From: a virus
Length of the DNA: 20,261 nucleotides
Direction: 5' to 3' (one strand)
IMG/VR virus record: IMGVR_UViG_3300037088_000085
Location: 1-20,261 of that record
Positions 2,663 through 20,106 of this stretch are shown here, one piece after another. The notes beneath the pieces are model-generated. The model was given only the letters and a program-made list of their open reading frames with translations. It ran no database searches and was not told the origin of the DNA. The translations under genes were made by a program, and so were the position numbers. Each line of letters starts with the position of its first letter. The first letter of the stretch is position 1.

Positions 2663-2806
2663 ATGGATACAACTACGTCCGTAGTCAATGCTACTGTATT
2701 TGAAAAGGGCATTTCTAGAGAAGATATTGCTCTGGCGAATGAAATTGTGCATTTGACCAGACCCATTCCTATATCAAAAATAAGGAAAATATTATGGCCG
2801 GAGTAA
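2663..2806 (+). CDS. Possible small protein of 47 residues between terL and portal
   Basis: An open frame from ATG 2663 to TAA 2804-2806, overlapping the portal start by 13 nt in a different frame. The product reads as a plausible soluble protein: an N-terminal Thr/Val segment, a charged helix (ISREDIALANEIVHL) and a basic C-terminus (SKIRKILWPE). It fills nearly the whole gap between the two genes, which in such a packed genome argues for coding use. Against it, no clear ribosome binding site precedes the ATG (upstream is AT-rich) and I recognise no family. No function is assigned. Confidence 0.45.
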   Translation: MDTTTSVVNATVFEKGISREDIALANEIVHLTRPIPISKIRKILWPE

Positions 2807-4539
2807 ATCAAGGAAGTTATGAAAATACGTCTTTAGCTCCTTCCGGGGTTGGGGTCAATATACCAGGTGATCAGATCAATGCCCCGATCGCGGTGAGCCT
2901 GGGAGATATACCCCAGACTACTACAACCAATCTTACTGGTACTCAACGCAACACGCCTAACGGCCCGCCTATCTTCCGCCTCGAGAAATACTCTTTGATG
3001 TATAACGCTTACTATGCCGTGGGTGGATTTCTGGATGGTACAGTATTGCATAAGTCCCAAGTCGAGAAAGACGACCAATTTTTAGAAAGACGAGCAACCA
3101 CTCCTTACCGTAATTTCTTTCGCCCTATTGTCGATGCTACTTACATACCAGTGTTTGCATCTGGGGCAACACGTAGGACCACGGTCAATAGTGAGATAGA
3201 TGAGGACGGTCATCTATGTCCATTGTGGAATGATTTCTTGGATGATTGTGACTGCCGTAAAAGCCATATCCAGAAGTTTGTAAAGAAAATTATCAAGCAT
3301 GCAAGGATGCTTGGAGTGTCTTTTGTTGTAGTAGATAATTTTCCCCAGACTCCAGTCTTGACTCAAGATGCTCTTAAAGGCCGTCTATATCCTTATTGTT
3401 ACATGCGTTTACCCCAACAGGTAGAAACAAAGTACACACAAGTAGATGAGTTTACCCATATCGTACAGATATGTTTCCGTGAAGCCCAGGAACCTGAAGT
3501 GAACCCAGACACTGGGGAAACTATTATGCAGGATAGGTGGAAGCTTTGGACAAAGAATTATTCTGTTAAGATGCGTAGGGACAAGGGCTCGAGTAATCTT
3601 ATGGAGATACCAGGTACTAAAGTGGTATATAACCTTAATGAGGTCCCAGTATTACCTGTTATCAGCGGGGAAGTGGAAGATGGTACAGTATTACCTCACC
3701 CGGACTTTTACAGCGTGATGAAATCTAACTGGGCCTTGTATAATATCGACTCGGCACAGATGAGGCTTATAAGAGCCCAGATGTTTCCTATTCTATGCAT
3801 GCCGATGGATGAGGGCAATGAAAGTACCAAGAGTCAAGCAATCAACCCATTACAGGGTATATATCTACCTCCAGACCGTGACGGAGTAAATCACAAGCAA
3901 CCATTTTATTTAGCCCCTCCTATTGGTCCTTATCAGGAGTTAGCAACTACTACTGATACGCTTAAAGCGGATTTATATGCACAAGCAGGGCAACAGGGTG
4001 TTACAGGAGTGGTTAAGCAAGCCAAGTCTGGTGTTTCCCAGGCTTATGATTTCCGGGCCGAAGAATTTGTTTTGAAGGAGACGGCATTGATGGCCAAGAG
4101 GTGTGAAGAGGCTATAGCTTGCATGTTTCAATTATATGTTTTGTCTGAAAAGTTTGACTACGACGTAATATACGAAGACTCTTACTCGCCAGTTGACAAG
4201 GATAGCGACATCAAGATGTATGGTGATTATCTGGCATTAGATGCAGGACCCAAGGCCCGGGCCTTGGCTCTTGAGCAAGTAACCAGATCTGTATTTAACG
4301 ATATGGACGATGAAGACTTGATGCCTATTATTGAAGAGATCAAGGCTAACGCTGAAGAAGAGCAGGCCATGAAAGATAATCCTCCAGAACCTACTCCTAT
4401 GGATCCACAAGTACCTCAACCAGAAGACTTTATGGTTGCGATGGCTAAACCTCCTGAACAGCCAGCTCCAGAACCCAAGAAGGTGAATAAGTTTGCGAAG
4501 AACAAAAAAAGTCTTAAGAAAGCGAAGGTACCTAAATGA
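2794..4539 (+). CDS. Portal protein
   Basis: 581 residues, directly after the large terminase as usual for portals. A good site (AAGGAAA) precedes the ATG. The first 55-60 residues are a low-complexity Thr/Pro/Asn-rich extension. The body from about 61 has typical portal features: YRNFFRPIVDATYIPVF near 105-121, an acidic DEDGHLCPLWNDFLDDC segment, a helical KKIIKHARMLGVSFVVVDNF strand-helix unit, and a long helical stem region around SAQMRLIRAQMFPI. The C-terminus is acidic then Pro/Lys-rich and probably disordered. It forms the ring at the head vertex through which DNA enters and leaves and to which the tail joins. The call rests on overall pattern, size and position; no catalytic motif exists to confirm it. 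Confidence 0.85.
   Translation: MAGVNQGSYENTSLAPSGVGVNIPGDQINAPIAVSLGDIPQTTTTNLTGTQRNTPNGPPIFRLEKYSLMYNAYYAVGGFLDGTVLHKSQVEKDDQFLERRATTPYRNFFRPIVDATYIPVFASGATRRTTVNSEIDEDGHLCPLWNDFLDDCDCRKSHIQKFVKKIIKHARMLGVSFVVVDNFPQTPVLTQDALKGRLYPYCYMRLPQQVETKYTQVDEFTHIVQICFREAQEPEVNPDTGETIMQDRWKLWTKNYSVKMRRDKGSSNLMEIPGTKVVYNLNEVPVLPVISGEVEDGTVLPHPDFYSVMKSNWALYNIDSAQMRLIRAQMFPILCMPMDEGNESTKSQAINPLQGIYLPPDRDGVNHKQPFYLAPPIGPYQELATTTDTLKADLYAQAGQQGVTGVVKQAKSGVSQAYDFRAEEFVLKETALMAKRCEEAIACMFQLYVLSEKFDYDVIYEDSYSPVDKDSDIKMYGDYLALDAGPKARALALEQVTRSVFNDMDDEDLMPIIEEIKANAEEEQAMKDNPPEPTPMDPQVPQPEDFMVAMAKPPEQPAPEPKKVNKFAKNKKSLKKAKVPK
4250..4267. repeat. 18-bp perfect palindrome inside the portal gene
   Basis: CCAAGGCCCGGGCCTTGG is its own reverse complement. 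Its core GGCCCGGGCC recurs at 2418-2427 (terL) and 5702-5711 (ATP-grasp gene), each time encoding Ala-Arg-Ala in the same register. Possibly only a codon habit; see findings. Confidence 0.6.
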
Positions 4540-4763
4540 ATGAAGAATTAATCTTACAAGAGTTGAATGAGATTAAATCGGACATTAAAGAGATCAAGAA
4601 GTGCTTATTTATGGGGAATGGTCATCCATCAGTATGCTCACGTCTGGATGCAGTAGAGGGTGTTACAGGGTCTATAAAGCGTTTTATGTGGATTATTGTT
4701 GCTGGTATGGGTACTATTGCAACGTCTTGGGTAGCCCTGAATATTTTACATATAAAATTATAG
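4536..4763 (+). CDS. Small one-TM protein with N-terminal coiled coil (haemolysin XhlA-like)
   Basis: 75 residues, starting in an ATGA overlap with the portal stop, so probably translationally coupled. Residues 1-23 form a charged heptad-like helix (LILQELNEIKSDIKEIKK); residues about 50-70 are one hydrophobic segment (MWIIVAGMGTIATSWVALNIL) followed by a short basic tail. This order (coiled coil, linker, one C-terminal TM) is the architecture of XhlA-type phage membrane proteins linked to lysis, though the middle (GNGHPSVCSRLDAVEGV) is not diagnostic. The position between portal and head genes is unusual for a lysis gene, so another membrane-linked role is possible. The TM is clear; the family is tentative. 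Confidence 0.7.
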   Translation: MNEELILQELNEIKSDIKEIKKCLFMGNGHPSVCSRLDAVEGVTGSIKRFMWIIVAGMGTIATSWVALNILHIKL

Positions 4764-4769
4764 GTAAAA

Positions 4770-6026
4770 ATGATGAAACCTACAAATAAAGTTGTATGTT
4801 GTGTGGTTGATAATGGTGGTAATTACTTGCCCCAGGCCCATCGTCTGGCACAGGAATACTCTAAAGTTTATTATACCAACCCTAGCTGGGTAGATGCTTA
4901 TCCAAAAATGAATAAGCCGTTTATAGGCTATGGGTTGAAAGATATAGAAGTGGTGGAGACACCATGGGAGATATACGATGAGATTGATTTGTGGGTCTTT
5001 CCCGATACTTACAATGGCCCATTTATCGAATGGCTTAAAGCTCAAGGCGAGATTGTCTGGGGAAGTGGAGTCGGAGAAGAACTCGAGCTCGAAAGAGACC
5101 TTCTCAAAGAACATACCCAGGAACTTGGCTTGCCCGTGTCCAAGTGGGAAAACATTGTTGGTCTTACTAATCTACGTGTTTATCTGCAAAAGCATGAGGA
5201 TGTTTACGTCAAAATAAGCAAGTGGCGTGGAACAGTTGAGACGTTTCATAGCCAGAATTACAAGCTTATTAAGCCCGAACTCGATGAGATGGAACATTGT
5301 CTGGGTCCTTTTGCAAATATTATAGAGTTTGTTGTTGAGCAACCAGTCCCAGACGCCGTGGAAATTGGTTTTGATGGATGGACAATTGATGGTGCTTATC
5401 CAGAGTATGTACTTGCTGGAGTTGAAATAAAAGACAAGGCTTACGTAGGTAAGTTTTCCGCTTATTCAGACTTATCTACCCTAATTACTGGGTGGAACGA
5501 TAAGTACTCATCTACCTTTAAAAACTATCAATATCGAGGGTTCATGTCGACGGAAATTAGGGTAGATAACACAAAAACACCTTATATGATAGATTTTACA
5601 GCTAGGACCCCTTGTCCTCCGGGTGAAATATACCTTTGTTTATATGAAAACTTGGGTGAAGTTATATGGGAAGGTGCGAATGGCAACATGATATTACCCA
5701 AGGCCCGGGCCAAGTATGGTGTAGAATTGCTTATGGAGTCTGATTGGGCAACACACAATTTCCAGGCTGTTTATTATCCTCCCAAGTACGCAGAGTATGT
5801 AAAACTTAAGAAGGCATGTAAGATTGATGGTGTTGATTACATTATACCGCAATCTTATGGGTCTAATGATATCGGGGCCGTGGTAGGTCTGGGTGATACC
5901 TTGGAAGAGGCTATCAAGGATTGTCTGGATGTAGCGGACTCGATTGAGGGCAATGGTATATGCTTACGCAAGGATACATTTGATACTGCTCGAGAGGAAT
6001 TCGATAAATTTGAAGCTATAAAATAA
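4770..6026 (+). CDS. ATP-grasp protein resembling glycinamide ribonucleotide synthetase (PurD-like)
   Basis: 418 residues laid out like GARS. N-domain (1-100): a beta-alpha nucleotide-type fold starting KVVCCVVDNGG. ATP-grasp (about 104-305): LERDLLKEHTQELGLPVSKW matches the usual lead-in, YVKISKWRG (146-154) holds the probable ATP-binding Lys148, and MIDFTARTPCPPGE (273-286) sits where GARS has its metal-binding Glu-x-Asn followed by an Arg and GDPE-like segment. C-domain (about 340-405): GLGDTLEEAIKDC and CLRKDTFD resemble the final GARS lobe. The canonical E-x-N appears as D275-x-T277, so activity may be altered. ATP-grasp enzymes join a carboxylate to an amine or thiol with ATP; the substrate here is unknown. 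It lies in the head module, not a purine operon, so purine synthesis is unlikely. ATG 4773 is an alternative start. Confidence 0.75.
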   Translation: MMKPTNKVVCCVVDNGGNYLPQAHRLAQEYSKVYYTNPSWVDAYPKMNKPFIGYGLKDIEVVETPWEIYDEIDLWVFPDTYNGPFIEWLKAQGEIVWGSGVGEELELERDLLKEHTQELGLPVSKWENIVGLTNLRVYLQKHEDVYVKISKWRGTVETFHSQNYKLIKPELDEMEHCLGPFANIIEFVVEQPVPDAVEIGFDGWTIDGAYPEYVLAGVEIKDKAYVGKFSAYSDLSTLITGWNDKYSSTFKNYQYRGFMSTEIRVDNTKTPYMIDFTARTPCPPGEIYLCLYENLGEVIWEGANGNMILPKARAKYGVELLMESDWATHNFQAVYYPPKYAEYVKLKKACKIDGVDYIIPQSYGSNDIGAVVGLGDTLEEAIKDCLDVADSIEGNGICLRKDTFDTAREEFDKFEAIK

Positions 6027-6047: not shown

Positions 6048-6440
6048 AAACCTATCCATATTGAGTCGATATCTTACGTACATCAGAGGTACGAAACCCT
6101 AGGCGACTATTACGATGATGAAAAGGGTACCCAGATCAAGGTCACGGATATGGGTGCTGAAGATTATGAATTCTTAATTGCACTCCATGAGATGGTCGAG
6201 CAATATCTTTGCAAGAATCGAGGGATACGTGAAGAAGACATTACCAAGTTTGATAAAATGTTCGAAGCCGAAAGAGATGCAGAGAAGTGGACCACGGAAG
6301 AGCCTGGTGATGATCCTCGAGCACCTTACAAGAAAGAACATTTTTTCTCGACAAACATTGAACGGTTAATGGCCGAGCAATTAGGGGTTAACTGGCAAAT
6401 TTACGAAAAGTTTTGTCAAGAATATGAAACACGTTACTAA
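6045..6440 (+). CDS. Conserved-looking phage protein with HExxE motif, unknown function
   Basis: 131 residues, acidic, with a strong binding site (GGAGAGACAG) upstream. The central helix FLIALHEMVEQYL places H48-E49 and E52 as an HExxE motif, followed by KNRGIREEDITKFD and a loop EEPGDDPRAPYKKEHFF with a further His99; the C-terminus (ERLMAEQLGVNWQIYEKF) is helical. HExxE-like helices can bind zinc as in metallopeptidases, but the motif is short and there is no second classic zinc signature, so hydrolase activity is only a possibility. It follows the ATP-grasp gene by 18 nt and overlaps the next gene by 17 nt, so the three probably form one unit. No recognisable head protease exists elsewhere in the module. 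Confidence 0.7.
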   Translation: MKPIHIESISYVHQRYETLGDYYDDEKGTQIKVTDMGAEDYEFLIALHEMVEQYLCKNRGIREEDITKFDKMFEAERDAEKWTTEEPGDDPRAPYKKEHFFSTNIERLMAEQLGVNWQIYEKFCQEYETRY

Positions 6441-6639
6441 ACATTTGGATGATAAGTTTATCAAGAAGTGGAAGGAATTTTCCGGGCCATTGAAGAGTGC
6501 TATTAAAAAAGGTATTATGGTTCCTGGGAAGAAGGTCAATCCACGTTTGGTTGTTTCGCAAGTGTTTGCCAAGTACCGTGTTCGTGATAAACTTGAAAAG
6601 CTTATCATGGATAACGTAGAAGATGCCCTACATATATAG
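6424..6639 (+). CDS. Small basic protein, unknown function
   Basis: 71 residues, Lys-rich (KHLDDKFIKKWKEF, KSAIKKGIMVPGKK), with a C-terminal helix (VRDKLEKLIMDNVEDAL). It overlaps the preceding gene by 17 nt in another frame and has only a weak binding site (TCAAGAAT), suggesting coupled translation. No TM or recognisable domain. The basic surface would allow nucleic acid or acidic-protein contact, but that is inference. Position between the HExxE protein and the minor head protein suggests a head-assembly or accessory role. Confidence 0.6.
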   Translation: MKHVTKHLDDKFIKKWKEFSGPLKSAIKKGIMVPGKKVNPRLVVSQVFAKYRVRDKLEKLIMDNVEDALHI

Positions 6640-6656: not shown

Positions 6657-7427
6657 ATGTCTAAAGTTGAGCGTAATTGGTTTCTGAATAAGTCATTTGC
6701 AGGTAAGACACCTCTATCCACACGTATTACCAAGCTCCAGATGCAAGACCAGGTTGTGGAAACTATAAGGATTTCTCTAGAAAATGCAGGTAAATTCACT
6801 AGTCTGGTAAAAGATTTATCGAATTATACTACAGAAGAAGATATTGCAGGAGCGATACGGGACGTGGAACGAGGAGCTAGGGCTGTTATTGGATCAACTG
6901 CAGATTATGCGGACTTTGTAAGACTGCTTAATAATACCAAGGCTGATTTGCTTGAGAAGATGGATGATGGCCAGATAACGGATTTGAATAAAGCTTATTT
7001 GAAAGTGGTTAAGGCTGCAGAAAACCTCAATGAAATGGGCCTGGATAAGGCAATTGAGAATGCAGTTGATAAGAAGGCCATGTACAATGCATTTAGGCTT
7101 GCAAGGACCGAGACGGCTCGGGCTTATAATGCTATGTCGCTACGTAATGCCATTGATGATCCAGATTGTGTAGCAATAAGGTATGAGCTTGGGGCGAATG
7201 AGAACAATTGCGATGAATGCAGTGGTCTTGCGGAAGCGGATAACGGGGCTGGTCCTGGAGTTTATGATTTAGATGATTGCCCAGAGACTCCAAGTCACGC
7301 GAATTGCCTATGTAAGCTGGTTCCTGTTTATAAGCTTCCTGAAGGTGTTGACGCAGAGGATATAGATGCAACGGATGAGGACTTTGACAGGATGGACCCT
7401 GTACCAGAAGACGTAGCGGAAGAGTAA
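6657..7427 (+). CDS. Minor head protein, Mu F / SPP1 gp7 type
   Basis: 256 residues. The N-terminal half is helical; the C-terminal domain (about 145-225) matches the phage Mu F-like head morphogenesis pattern: FRLARTETARAYNA, then a Cys pair NCDEC (C185, C188), an acidic YDLDDCPETPSHANCLCKLVPV segment with C208, H214, C217 and C219. In this family these residues give a ...P.HxNCxC ending. The last 25 residues are strongly acidic. Proteins of this kind bind the portal or DNA inside the procapsid and are needed for proper head assembly or DNA release. GGAAG lies just upstream of the ATG. Family placement is good; the Cys/His set may bind a metal. Confidence 0.85.
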   Translation: MSKVERNWFLNKSFAGKTPLSTRITKLQMQDQVVETIRISLENAGKFTSLVKDLSNYTTEEDIAGAIRDVERGARAVIGSTADYADFVRLLNNTKADLLEKMDDGQITDLNKAYLKVVKAAENLNEMGLDKAIENAVDKKAMYNAFRLARTETARAYNAMSLRNAIDDPDCVAIRYELGANENNCDECSGLAEADNGAGPGVYDLDDCPETPSHANCLCKLVPVYKLPEGVDAEDIDATDEDFDRMDPVPEDVAEE

Positions 7428-8235: not shown

Positions 8236-9396
8236 ATGAGTGCAGGAAATACCCTTACCAGTTTTATGCCGACGCTGTTCAAGGGTTTGAACATGGTCGA
8301 CAACGAGCCTACGGACCTTATTAATGCCGTAAACATTAATGCAAGTCTGGCTCAAGCAGCCCTTAACCAGGTTGTTACGTACCCAATCGCAATTGATTCA
8401 AGTTCGTATGTTATTACTCCTGGTCTACTTCCTCCCGATAGGGCTGGAGATACTCCTGGAGCAGGTACATTGACAATGAGCAATGCGTTTGCTACGAACT
8501 TTAAGTACACGGAAGAAGATCGGCACCAGTTGGAACTTGGTGGAATTTACAGTGATTACTACGCTGACCAGGTTGCAAAAAGCATTCGTCAACTTCGTAA
8601 TCAGGTGGAAGCGTCTATTTCTGGGTTGTATACATATGCTTGTCGGGCCGATGGTAGTGCTGGAGTAACACCGTTTGCAACGGCAAATAACATGACAGAC
8701 TTTGCGTCTGTACAGTTGACCATGGATGAGAATGGTACTCCTATGTTTGACCGTCACCTTATTGTAAGTCCTAAAGCGGCCTATAATATTCGTGGTAACA
8801 TGAGTAACCTTTACAAAGTGAATGAAGCTGGAAGTTCTGACCTGCTTCGCACTGGTAGTCTTGGGGAGATTGAAGGTCTTAATTGTGGTATTTCTGCTCA
8901 AATTAAGGCAACATCGGCTTATGGAACATCTGGTGTGTCTGGTGACCAGACTACAGCGGTCAATCTGGCTGGATCTACGACTATTACGGTTACAGGTGGA
9001 GCGGGAACTATTGTTGCAGGTGATCTTGTACAGTTTAGCAATGATACTGCTCATACATACGTATGCGTATCAGATCTTTCGGCATCGACTTTCAAGATCA
9101 ATGCACCAGGTCTTGTTAAAGCGACTGCAAGTAATACATTGGTAACAGTTGTACAGTCAACTTATACGCCCAACATGGCCTTTAGCCGCGACGCTATCAC
9201 TCTGGTAGCTCGTATGCCTACCCTTAACACTCCTGGTGGTGTGTTACTTGATAGCAAGATCATCAAAGATCCACACAGCAAGCTATCTTACCAGATGGCA
9301 TTGTGGGGTGGATATCGTCAGCAGGTGATCGAGTTTGGTCTTGTATGGGGAGTTGCAGCAACTAACCCACAAAACCTTGTATTGTTACTTGGATAA
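8236..9396 (+). CDS. Major capsid protein, P22 coat type (HK97 fold with insertion domain)
   Basis: 386 residues. Matches the P22 gp5-like pattern: an N-terminal arm, KYTEEDRHQLELGGIYSDYYADQ (helical spine area), DRHLIVSPKAAYNIRG, then LLRTGSLGEIEGLNCGIS, followed at about 228-306 by a Gly/Thr-rich beta insertion (TTITVTGGAGTIVAGDLVQF) like the I-domain of P22 coat, and the return SRDAITLVARM near 317-327. The C-terminal strand region ends GLVWGVAATNPQNLVLLLG. It builds the icosahedral shell. P22-type coats assemble with a scaffold and mature without proteolysis, agreeing with the separate scaffold gene and the lack of a clear head protease. AAAGGAT precedes the ATG; a terminator follows directly. 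Confidence 0.88.
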   Translation: MSAGNTLTSFMPTLFKGLNMVDNEPTDLINAVNINASLAQAALNQVVTYPIAIDSSSYVITPGLLPPDRAGDTPGAGTLTMSNAFATNFKYTEEDRHQLELGGIYSDYYADQVAKSIRQLRNQVEASISGLYTYACRADGSAGVTPFATANNMTDFASVQLTMDENGTPMFDRHLIVSPKAAYNIRGNMSNLYKVNEAGSSDLLRTGSLGEIEGLNCGISAQIKATSAYGTSGVSGDQTTAVNLAGSTTITVTGGAGTIVAGDLVQFSNDTAHTYVCVSDLSASTFKINAPGLVKATASNTLVTVVQSTYTPNMAFSRDAITLVARMPTLNTPGGVLLDSKIIKDPHSKLSYQMALWGGYRQQVIEFGLVWGVAATNPQNLVLLLG

Positions 9397-16029: not shown

Positions 16030-19000
16030 ATGTCAATTAAGAAGATAGTGATTGAAGATTACAATGCTACATCTTGGGCTGGAGTGGAAACTGATGGGTC
16101 TCCTATTATTGTGGAGTGTGTGGGTGGAGGAGCAGGGGGTCCGAAAGGTAATAGCGGGTGGGTAGGAGCAGGAGGCGGGGAATATGCTCGATCGACAATA
16201 CCTTATATATCTGGTACATCGGTACCTATACAAGTAGGTAGAAGTGCTGCTGGATCTACTACATCAGGTCTTGGTCATAATGGTTTCGATACGTCATTTA
16301 ATAACGGACAAATCCTTGCCCATGGTGGTACCAATAATAGATTTGGTGGTACAGGTGGTACAGGAGATGTTGTTTATAAAGGTGGAGACGGAGCTGCTGG
16401 TGAGCAAAATTATATATCTGGTGGTGGAGGAGCAGGAGGGGGCATAGGCCCTGGAGGAGCTGGAGGAAGCAGCAGATATTATGGAGGTAATGGAGGAGGT
16501 CTTGGAGGATACAGTGATAATTTCCTTTATTTAACTAGTTTACAAGGTATAACTTATAAACTTGTTGGTCATGGTGGTAATACTGATAATGTAAGTATTG
16601 CGGACGGTTTTGCTTATGGTGGTGCTGGGTCTGGTGGAATAAGTATTAATGGTGGGGATGGCTGTCAAGGAGTAATAATAATAACTTATAATACTCCAGG
16701 ATCAAAAATCCATTACGCTGCAGAGATAAAACTTAATAATTCCACTCTTACTGATACCGATCACGGCCTTGTAAATGGAGTATTTAGATTTGTTACTGAT
16801 AGGCCTCAATATGATGGACATACAGTAGTCCCAGTCTACGGTCCTGATGAGATCGATTTATCTGGATTACCTATATCTAATAACAATAACACTCATGTTT
16901 ATTACCAAGATTTTATAGTTAAAGATGGCATTGATGGCAATGCAGTAAGGTCAATAGATATAACGTCTGGAGGCTCTTACGGTAATGATGCTTCTTTTTC
17001 GTTTAAGCTTCGTGGAGATAAGATAATTGGTTCTTATTTCTGGGAATTCTGCAAGAACAACAACATAATATTATCCAATTCGATTGTTGTTTTTTACGTG
17101 GTTATTGATGATGTTTTTTGGAAGCAATGGCAAGGCCGAGTAAGTAACAATCCTTATACGGACACTGATTTTGAAATACAATGTAAGGATGATGCTACTA
17201 CTATACATAAGGTTATGCCTCCTTTTAAAGAGCAAGTGGTCAAGACTAATGCATCTGGGTTAATTTCGGAACAAGTTATAAATCTTAATGTTAATTCTAA
17301 TAATTCGGCTCCTGTGATACCTGGAACTAACCAGACTGCTGAAGAGATAACAATACCTATTGTTTTTGGTGACGTGTCTTTCAGTCCTATTATAAAAATT
17401 AATGATCAAAATACTTTTGAGATCTTGGATTACGATAACGAAAGTAATCCTGTTTACGCAATACCCGCTTATCAATACAGGATAATATCTAACGCTACCG
17501 ATAATCAGTTGAGCCAATTGTATTTACTACATTCTGGAGCTGTTAAATTTACCGCTAGTGATTCGAGGCTTAAAGGAAAATACCTTAATGCTATTGTTGG
17601 TCAAAATGTAGATAAAGATCAGATTTACAGGATTGTTGATAATACTGCGACTACATTTCCCCCTGTTATAAATCCTTCTTCGCCTGCAAAGTTTTATATG
17701 ACGATGGTGACGTTGGATAGTTTGCTTGTAGACAGTAATAAAAGCATAGTTACAGAAACAAATTTTAATTCCAACGAAGGAATTACATCGACTATTGATT
17801 GGTCAAAGGTCAACAGGTATGCCTATTATGCTTTTTCAAGTGCTACTCAAGCCGGGGAATTTGGACCTCACTCGAGTCCAAATACTTGGTACTTTAAAGT
17901 ATCAACTTATGCAATTGAGACTCAAGTTTCTACCAATAATTTCCTAGGCAACATAGATACGTCCGCACAATTGGTTAAAGGAGCGTCTGGGTACAGTTTA
18001 TGGTCTTGGGACAGTAACTCTAACTCTTATATAGATGTAAGTTCTTTTGTTTCAGTGTCCTCGACAGGTAACACCGTAAGTCTTACGACTAACACTGCTA
18101 CTACAGACGGTAAAATCCAGAAGATAGAGCTTATAAATTACCCTATTGAACTGGTTTGCTTACGAAGTACTCCTGGAGGAGGAATAGGTAATGCTATAAG
18201 GATAGTGGGTACTTTTGGTCAACTTATTGCAAATCCTTTGATACCTACTAATGCCAATCCTGGTACAGATTTTAGTTATCCAAGTACAATAGTACCTGGA
18301 ATAATCTACGTGGATGGACATGCACAGCCTGGTACGTCATGTAAAATAACAGATGGTAATATTTTTCCTCTTTTTATTGACCATAATAGGGTAAATGAAG
18401 TTAGCTTTACTCTATCTTTAAATAATCCAGTGTTTGCAATTTGTGTTAAATATGATTTAAATCAACCTTTACCTTATGATTATGACCGAATTTATTTCTT
18501 GGTAGATGTAAACGTGTCTGGAGGGACTGGTGATTGCAGGATAGGTGCTCTACAATACAGTTTATTTGATTCTAGGGGGTTATTATCATTTCCTGGGTTA
18601 TCTTATAATCCTCCTGCTGCTATAACCAGATGTATTGCTAACGGTAATATCAATCTCTTACCTAATGATTATTATTCAGGAGTACCATTTACCGATGTAA
18701 CTAGTCTTTTCCTAAATAATTCTGGAGTAGCAAGTAAAGCGGCCAATTCTAGCGTTGCTTATAACATGTTATTCGACTTTAACCCGACTAATCTTGGTAA
18801 TACTCCCCAGACTGGGGCATTAATTCAGAACACTACTAAAGACGATCTTACAAAGAGTGACTACATAAGGTATATAGAATGCCAGATACCTTTTAATGCT
18901 AGAACACTTTTTACTGCACTAGGAATTGCTGGAGATGCAAATGCTAACTGGGGTAATACTTTTTCTGTTGGCATTAAAGAAATAGCATTGATGGGCGTGA

Positions 19001-20106
19001 GGACAATAGATACGGTATCTGGTGATTTATTTGCTCGAGTTGAAGGGGAACTTACAGGAGCTGATGATACAGATCCATTACAGAAGACAGATGATATTTA
19101 CCATACCATCATGCATATCATGGAGGATTACGATGGAATAAATAAAAAGCTTATTGATTATGGTAATATACCCCAGACACGCGGGTCTTGGGAAGTTGGA
19201 CGTGTTGTTACCGATCAGCAAAATGCAATAAACTACCTCAATGAGATATGTTCCCAATCTTTTATTGGTTTATATGGTAATCGTAAGGGACAAAGAGCCC
19301 TGAATGCTTGGTTAGGAGGTCCTGCATCACCTAATGCTACTTTTACTCCTACTTTTGATAGAGGTAAGAGTACTTTGCATAATAGCCTATTAATAATAGA
19401 GGGTTCTATAAGTAATCTCGAGAAGACGGACTTTAGCCAGATATACAATTCTTTTCAATTATCTTATAATTATGATCCAGGAAGTAAGAATTACACAAGA
19501 TTTATCAATGTATCATCAGTTGATGCAACTGGAGGGTTTCCGGTACCGACTAATTACCTATGGCATAATTATGTAACAGGGGCATATGGGACAACAAGTA
19601 TTACGGACAATTGGAGTGATGCAAGTAGCGTCTGGACTAGCTGTAGTCAATCTTATGTTGATAATCATGTTACTCAATTGGCCACGGTCCAGGCCTCGGA
19701 ATTGCCTTGGTTTATCGATGATGGGGTTTTTAAAGATGAGCCAACAAACCCTGTAAGTAGTTCGGCCTGGAAATACCTTAATTTCTTGGCTTATTGGTCG
19801 ACTCGACAGAAAGACATAGTAACATACAATATTCCGATCACGGAATTTACGGTTGGTACGGAACTTTTAGATTGTATTACGTTTAATGATGATATCTTTA
19901 CGGATGGTCAAGACAGAGTAGGTTGGATAACAAGCATCGAGATCGATGCTGCAAGTAATCAATATGTAATACAGTCGGTTTTGCAAAGTTCGGACTTGGC
20001 CAAGATAACTACCCCAGATGGTCTTGATGAGCGTCCACCGAGTGTGGATTATGTTGATAGTCTGGATCAAAGAAGTTTTAATACAGATTCCTTGGATGAA
20101 AGGTAA
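16030..20106 (+). CDS. Tail tip / host-contact protein with N-terminal glycine-rich domain
   Basis: 1358 residues. Residues about 10-222 form a complete glycine-rich domain: VECVGGGAGG near 28-37, runs such as GGGGAGGGIGPGGAGG at 131-146, and the typical ending GGDGCQGVIIITY at 208-220. Residues about 290-400 are a beta unit with SFKLRGDKIIGSYFWEFC and QWQGRVSNN, followed by long Ser/Thr/Asn-rich beta regions. Residues about 1085-1330 (RVVTDQQNAINYLNEICSQS, GRKGQRALNAW, TVGTELLDCITF, VGWITSIEIDA) resemble the hub domain of tail-tip proteins. The last residues repeat a short (G/S)LD(E/Q)R unit three times. It is the last large protein of the tail cluster, so host contact or baseplate hub function is inferred. 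AAGGAT lies upstream. Confidence 0.8.
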   Translation: MSIKKIVIEDYNATSWAGVETDGSPIIVECVGGGAGGPKGNSGWVGAGGGEYARSTIPYISGTSVPIQVGRSAAGSTTSGLGHNGFDTSFNNGQILAHGGTNNRFGGTGGTGDVVYKGGDGAAGEQNYISGGGGAGGGIGPGGAGGSSRYYGGNGGGLGGYSDNFLYLTSLQGITYKLVGHGGNTDNVSIADGFAYGGAGSGGISINGGDGCQGVIIITYNTPGSKIHYAAEIKLNNSTLTDTDHGLVNGVFRFVTDRPQYDGHTVVPVYGPDEIDLSGLPISNNNNTHVYYQDFIVKDGIDGNAVRSIDITSGGSYGNDASFSFKLRGDKIIGSYFWEFCKNNNIILSNSIVVFYVVIDDVFWKQWQGRVSNNPYTDTDFEIQCKDDATTIHKVMPPFKEQVVKTNASGLISEQVINLNVNSNNSAPVIPGTNQTAEEITIPIVFGDVSFSPIIKINDQNTFEILDYDNESNPVYAIPAYQYRIISNATDNQLSQLYLLHSGAVKFTASDSRLKGKYLNAIVGQNVDKDQIYRIVDNTATTFPPVINPSSPAKFYMTMVTLDSLLVDSNKSIVTETNFNSNEGITSTIDWSKVNRYAYYAFSSATQAGEFGPHSSPNTWYFKVSTYAIETQVSTNNFLGNIDTSAQLVKGASGYSLWSWDSNSNSYIDVSSFVSVSSTGNTVSLTTNTATTDGKIQKIELINYPIELVCLRSTPGGGIGNAIRIVGTFGQLIANPLIPTNANPGTDFSYPSTIVPGIIYVDGHAQPGTSCKITDGNIFPLFIDHNRVNEVSFTLSLNNPVFAICVKYDLNQPLPYDYDRIYFLVDVNVSGGTGDCRIGALQYSLFDSRGLLSFPGLSYNPPAAITRCIANGNINLLPNDYYSGVPFTDVTSLFLNNSGVASKAANSSVAYNMLFDFNPTNLGNTPQTGALIQNTTKDDLTKSDYIRYIECQIPFNARTLFTALGIAGDANANWGNTFSVGIKEIALMGVRTIDTVSGDLFARVEGELTGADDTDPLQKTDDIYHTIMHIMEDYDGINKKLIDYGNIPQTRGSWEVGRVVTDQQNAINYLNEICSQSFIGLYGNRKGQRALNAWLGGPASPNATFTPTFDRGKSTLHNSLLIIEGSISNLEKTDFSQIYNSFQLSYNYDPGSKNYTRFINVSSVDATGGFPVPTNYLWHNYVTGAYGTTSITDNWSDASSVWTSCSQSYVDNHVTQLATVQASELPWFIDDGVFKDEPTNPVSSSAWKYLNFLAYWSTRQKDIVTYNIPITEFTVGTELLDCITFNDDIFTDGQDRVGWITSIEIDAASNQYVIQSVLQSSDLAKITTPDGLDERPPSVDYVDSLDQRSFNTDSLDER

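Follow-up and report, generated by a model that had tools for sequence, protein, structure and literature searches.

IMG/VR virus record IMGVR_UViG_3300037088_000085, analysed over its whole length of 20,261 bases (the window), carries a module of late genes with a 418-residue open reading frame (ORF) among its head genes. The 5′ part of the module comprises an HNH/endonuclease VII-like gene, a DUF5681 gene, terminase, portal, a 75-residue ORF and the 418-residue ORF itself. The 3′ part continues with a 131-residue and a 71-residue ORF, followed by genes for MuF-like, scaffold-like, P22-like coat and neck/tail proteins. The 418-residue ORF shares the architecture of PurD, the glycinamide ribonucleotide (GAR) synthetase, yet it is no PurD; it is called the ligase here, and the 131-residue gene downstream of it is called Z. 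A sequence-only reading of the same DNA had placed the ORF between portal and minor head genes, where it indeed lies (Table 1), and had grouped it with the next two genes as a co-transcribed block. The tight spacing is confirmed. The grouping is strong for Z, a widespread partner of the ligase, and weak for the 71-residue ORF (L129 only). That reading missed that Z is a conserved partner with a zincin-like H-E-x-x-E motif. Neither Z nor the ligase type found in the window (type I) is described in Pfam, PHROGs, NCBIfam or 50,697 phage records, and literature searches found no description of the ligase–Z pair.

Fold of the ligase and layout of the locus

In the single sequence the PurD signal is weak. 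TIGR00877 is matched with an expect value (E) of 5e-5 and 22 bits against a cutoff of 288 bits, and Pfam GARS_C gives E 0.12. When the ligase family is compared with PurD profile to profile, the two match over residues 9–407 (probability 97.4, E 1e-11). The AlphaFold model, built from an alignment of 36 sequences, has a mean predicted local distance difference test score (pLDDT) of 94.2 and a predicted template modelling score (pTM) of 0.93. A Foldseek search of the PDB with this model returned GAR synthetases over the full length at all of ranks 1–15 (best E 1e-22, TM 0.65–0.77). Predicted structure and profile together place the N, ATP-grasp and C domains of the PurD fold in the window ligase, thus bearing out the full-length PurD-like layout that had been proposed from the letters alone. 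The prediction and fold search give an ATP-grasp fold, and so no ground for rejecting that proposal. The ATP lysine, the metal-side acids and the Arg of the E-x-N-x-R strand (K148, E106, E198, K221, D275, R279) place the ligase in the ATP-grasp superfamily, with Asn changed to Thr or Cys; the fold search favours PurD. Among viral predicted structures (BFVD) there was no full-length match, the query-normalised TM reaching at most 0.50. Near sequence pairs have a ratio of non-synonymous to synonymous substitution (dN/dS) of about 0.05–0.13, so the 418-residue frame is not a product of chance.

Table 1. Features of the ligase block and its surroundings (positions in the window)
Feature	Positions	Strand	Basis and remarks
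Portal protein	2794..4539	+	phrog_145, E 3e-29; immediately 5′ of the ligase block
75-residue ORF in the portal–ligase gap	4536..4763	+	Weak coiled-coil match to DUF7201, under cutoff
PurD-like ATP-grasp ligase ("AG", type I), 418 residues, ATG start	4770..6026	+	ORF, fold, profile
E106-x-x-R109	5085..5096	+	Equivalent to Aquifex Glu100/Lys103; E invariant, R/K in 69/69 type I
K148, R153, E157	5211..5240	+	K148 is the ATP lysine, invariant; R153 69/69, E157 68/69 type I
E198 and D202	5361..5375	+	Alignment; E198 equivalent to PurD Glu192 (ATP), 68/69; D202 new, type I-invariant
E219-x-K221	5424..5432	+	Alignment; equivalent to PurD Asp212/Lys214; the GPNTG loop that follows in PurD is missing
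E262-x-R264	5553..5561	+	E invariant in type I; not in PurD or type II
D275-x-T277-x-R279-x-P-x-P-P signature	5592..5621	+	Replaces PurD E-x-N-x-R-[LF]-G-D-P-E
Partner gene Z, 131 residues	6045..6440	+	Invariant H48-E49-x-x-E52, D70, H99, E106
71-residue ORF	6424..6639	+	17-base overlap with end of Z; kept solely in syntenic L129 (E 4e-11)
MuF-like minor head protein	6657..7427	+	phrog_1657, E 1e-20; immediately 3′ of the block
P22-like major coat protein	8236..9396	+	Context of the ligase block

For the 75-residue ORF no relative was found beyond the window. The endonuclease VII/HNH-type protein upstream of the terminase (173 residues, positions 113–634) matches phrog_2340 with E 3e-18. Near the other end, positions 16030–20106 encode a protein of 1358 residues, likely a tail or fibre protein; its start is rich in glycine, and PHROGs gave no match for it even at E ≤ 10.

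Relatives and the active site

The D275-x-T277-x-R279-x-P-x-P-P motif served as the search motif for relatives. Read as the family version of the PurD motif, it was converted to a degenerate DNA pattern for a scan of IMG/VR, yielding 55 matching stretches, 54 of which encode relatives. Combined with a scan seeded by Z, this gave 109 loci and 91 distinct proteins; some loci are overlapping parts of one contig or near copies, and the locus counts are not counts of independent events. The ORF caller used on the fetched loci was a simple greedy script and may have missed some Z or ligase genes. Scanning 84,980 prokaryote genomes with the same motif returned 46 stretches; only three were real, all on contigs of metagenome-assembled genomes (MAGs); a profile search of 247 genomes from the phylum of one MAG copy found no further clear ligase copy. 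PHROGs holds no match for the family, type I passes no Pfam cutoff, and single-protein scans of viral contigs with the ligase and with the portal found nothing. INPHARED contains one type II copy. A direct tblastn of the window ligase there gave no match; Acinetobacter AP22-type matches, the sole ones at E ≤ 10, were rejected, the AP22 protein being an HNH endonuclease (phrog_374, E 6e-71).

Two types of ligase can be told apart. In a tree rooted by choice on PurD, a branch separates each group from the rest: type I (69 rows, support 100), type II (17 rows, support 92) and PurD (8 rows). Type II, to which some of the Z-linked ligases belong, keeps E-x-T-x-R-x-G, and all three of its members tested lie above the Pfam GARS_A cutoff. 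The complete phage ct2os315 has a type II copy at its late-gene end, without Z. Weak matches of type II to Enterococcus and Listeria "phage" records were set aside. The Enterococcus record was checked (L283, OR846666.1, "Enterococcus phage Efs 1-1-1"); it carries a bacterial purine cluster including a genuine PurD, and appears to be host DNA under a phage label.

Published contacts of Aquifex PurD were mapped onto the 69 type I sequences through an alignment with eight PurD sequences. In the Aquifex enzyme Glu100 serves Mg, Lys103 and Glu192 serve ATP, and Glu292 binds glycine (PMC8880213). PurD residues E100, K103, K143, E192, D212, K214 and R287 correspond to E106, R109, K148, E198, E219, K221 and R279 of the window ligase, Asp212 having become Glu in the ligase family. 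The mapped ATP and Mg contacts are conserved in 68–69 of the 69 (with R or K at 109). The stretch from K148 to E157 sits at the glycine-rich GLAAGKG loop of PurD, and its R153 and E157 are specific to type I; R153, D202 and E262 are invariant in all 69. The substrate side differs. The signature PS00184, R[LF]GDPEx[EQIM], is missing, the window reading R-T-P-C-P-P-G-E; at least 68 of the 69 type I sequences, and 16 of 16 of type II, have another residue in place of its Asp. The position of the glycine-binding Glu292 is Pro in the window, P, S, A, M or V in 68 of 69 type I proteins, and A, I, S or C in type II. The GPNTG loop is missing from type I and variably kept in type II.

The sequence-only reading was exact in seeing Asp275-x-Thr277 where PurD has Glu-x-Asn, and the substitution is the rule across type I (position 275 is D in 68 of 69 and E in one; position 277 is T in 63 and C in six). 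On this alignment it is a family signature rather than decay. The altered substrate site is borne out. The change at the metal site is milder than had been suggested: Asp for Glu, together with the extra invariant Glu262, points to an enzyme that is probably still active but of changed specificity. The simplest reading of these residues is that the ATP-grasp site works and the substrate pocket has been remodelled. An ExR peptide-ligase motif considered for E262-x-R264 was dropped, as it lies on a different strand.

The change from E-x-N to D-x-T and the shortened glycine-rich loop might instead mark a catalytically dead protein, its PurD fold used as an assembly factor. This is very unlikely: 68–69 of 69 sequences keep the ATP lysine, the metal-side acids and R279, and the new polar residues are invariant, a set for which a dead fold would have no need. 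Hardly credible at all is a true GAR synthetase acting as an auxiliary purine gene. Fold and profile similarity speak for it, but the family score is far below cutoff, type I lacks PS00184, the GPNTG loop and the glycine-binding Glu, and searches of the window proteins in Pfam and PHROGs found no purine genes. The relatives found, checked for the purine neighbours that such an enzyme would suggest, are phage genes with virion neighbours.

The partner gene and the neighbourhood

Z is preceded by a Shine-Dalgarno-like AGGAGA, and HExxE is present in 17 of 17 aligned sequences, as are D70, H99 and E106. Its predicted model is a compact beta-alpha fold (pLDDT 94.6). The most probable Foldseek matches in the PDB are SprT (6mdw, probability 0.84) and MATCAP (7z5g, 0.72), aligned over 53–60 columns with a TM of about 0.3 across the HE-bearing helix and its flanking elements. 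From this model Z is tentatively described as a zincin-like, metallopeptidase-like protein. A 133-residue gene at the Z position in another locus (L091:1392-1790), overlapping the ligase start, was removed from the Z alignment as unrelated; by eye it resembles a HAD phosphatase.

Relatives of Z stand beside the ligase in many uncultivated phages. The pairing was assessed from an independent scan seeded with Z alone, in which the best 80 of 243 relatives were used and 47 loci had at least 2 kb on either side. A ligase lies within 500 bases of Z in 35 of these 47. The two genes are on the same strand in 33 of the 35 pairs and overlap by four bases in 17. Both ligase types use the same partner, type II accounting for 10 of the 35, and divergent type II ligases barely detected by the type I profile also stand beside Z (L276:4715-5992, L278:1762-3039), which indicates that Z tolerates different ligases. 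Along the ligase tree the order of the two genes changes at least seven times with adjacency kept. In the loci seeded with the ligase, Z is paired in 18 of 35. About 80 contigs seeded with terminase, taken as a base rate, contained neither gene.

The surroundings are those of virion genes, the ligases lying close to portals, terminases or large virion proteins. A portal adjoins or is close to the ligase in the window, L129, L121 and L248/L250/L275, and these portals come from three families: phrog_145 (window), phrog_1216 (L121) and phrog_156 (L248). In 37 loci it lies at most four genes from a protein of about 743 residues (f2), itself 3′ of a protein with terminase-like motifs; by position only, f2 is a portal, and searches by PHROGs, Pfam, PDB and hhalign gave it no firm match. 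Other copies follow very large virion-type proteins. A 1522-residue neighbour of one pair (L208:1179-5744) has an ART-PolyVal domain above the Pfam cutoff and may be an ejected polyvalent protein.

These last neighbours suit an effector, aimed at the host or at its defences, that would be produced late or ejected along with the genome and would ligate a group to a host protein or to a metabolite used in defence. Polyvalent ejected proteins often have zincin domains (PMC5512222), and for the peptide ligases of the ATP-grasp kind in phages a role in modifying host proteins has been proposed (PMC7824862). Some ligases (L118, L092, L138, L130) carry an extra N-terminal domain; certain N-terminal extensions are common to several phages, and that of L118 resembles gene 0 adjoining the L143 ligase (E 2e-6). 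However, a core function would account equally well for the strong purifying selection and the broad spread, the window ligase showed no delivery signal, and its neighbours are standard head proteins. An effector is accordingly considered rather unlikely.

The ligase might alternatively make a small molecule or modify a nucleotide or DNA base, for example by adding an amino acid to an amine-bearing base, so shielding the packaged genome whilst Z processes a precursor. PurD itself joins an amino acid to the amine of a nucleotide sugar, many type II relatives retain the GPNTG loop, and numerous small molecules are products of related ATP-grasp ligases (PMC4431377). However, no nucleotide-metabolism or base-modification gene stands beside the window's block, where the annotated neighbours are virion genes; early regions fall mostly outside the loci covered. 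A role of this kind, too, is considered rather unlikely.

Proposed function and known systems

The reading preferred here, held at a little less than an even chance, is that ligase and Z form a two-gene late cassette, an active ATP-grasp ligase with a metallopeptidase-like partner, which modifies a late phage protein. Its observed basis is the predicted fold, the kept ATP-site and changed substrate-site residues, purifying selection, the ligase–Z pairing and the virion neighbourhood. The ligase would be a catalytically competent carboxylate-amine ligase, retaining the PurD fold and ATP/Mg machinery with different substrates. By analogy with PurD, it would use ATP to activate a carboxylate as an acyl-phosphate, and might then join this to an amine on a late phage protein, be it portal, minor head, ejected or fibre. 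Z would trim, mature or reverse the modification. Action on a virion protein, a small molecule or in anti-defence had been among the roles suggested by the sequence-only reading. The fuller version, an undescribed phage protein-tagging cassette, in which the ligase tags a virion or ejected protein with an amino acid or another carboxylate and a dedicated HExxE metallopeptidase trims or removes it in many unrelated uncultivated tailed phages, is considered rather unlikely.

Several observations weigh against the late-protein cassette. The position of PurD Glu185 varies, being E in 37 of 69 type I sequences. About half of the ligase-seeded loci have no recognisable Z nearby, and at some loci Z is without a recognisable ligase (for example L209–L217, beside terminase). 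In L209–L212, L216, L217, L223, L273 and L280 such a Z lies between terminase and a gene of about 234 residues, f10, which might stand in for the ligase. Peptidase action by Z is a guess, its motif being HExxE rather than the HExxH of the zincin helix, and Foldseek gave no PDB match at E ≤ 0.001, the SprT alignment covering 60 columns. Nor is a late-operon position proof that the product acts on the virion.

Ligase and Z offer a unit of two genes, open to testing, within former phage dark matter. Modification of a virion protein, if true, would add to phage assembly an enzymatic step of an uncommon kind; modification of DNA, a host protein or a signal would be new phage chemistry.

With PurD (TIGR00877, EC 6.3.4.13) the ligase shares the three-part full-length architecture, the ATP/Mg contacts, the Arg after the metal motif and the C-terminal domain. 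It differs in falling far under the family cutoff, in the loss of PS00184, Glu292 and GPNTG, and in having phage virion neighbours and Z. RimK, the ligase of another such pair, is not PurD-like. RimK and RimB are encoded by neighbouring genes, the peptidase taking off what the ligase adds, and as a ligase–peptidase gene pair forming one regulatory unit they offer an analogy only (PMC11957791); theirs is a host system, not a phage one, with a peptidase fold other than that of Z. Similar, by description only, are the haloarchaeal PurD homologues rrnAC0307 and Hlac_1553, which lack the conserved Asp of R[LF]GDPE, have a divergent P-loop and were judged to be no true GAR synthetases (PMC3261824), although these are genes of archaeal genomes. 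The phage ATP-grasp ligases of the R2K clade are likewise phage-borne and proposed to modify peptides or proteins (PMC7824862, PMC4431377), but form a clade of their own, whose hallmark is two RAGNYA lysines; for the present ligase the fold search favours PurD. Finally, the zincins SprT and MATCAP share with Z a weak match at the HE-bearing helix and its flanks, and have HExxH or HExxxH where Z has HExxE.
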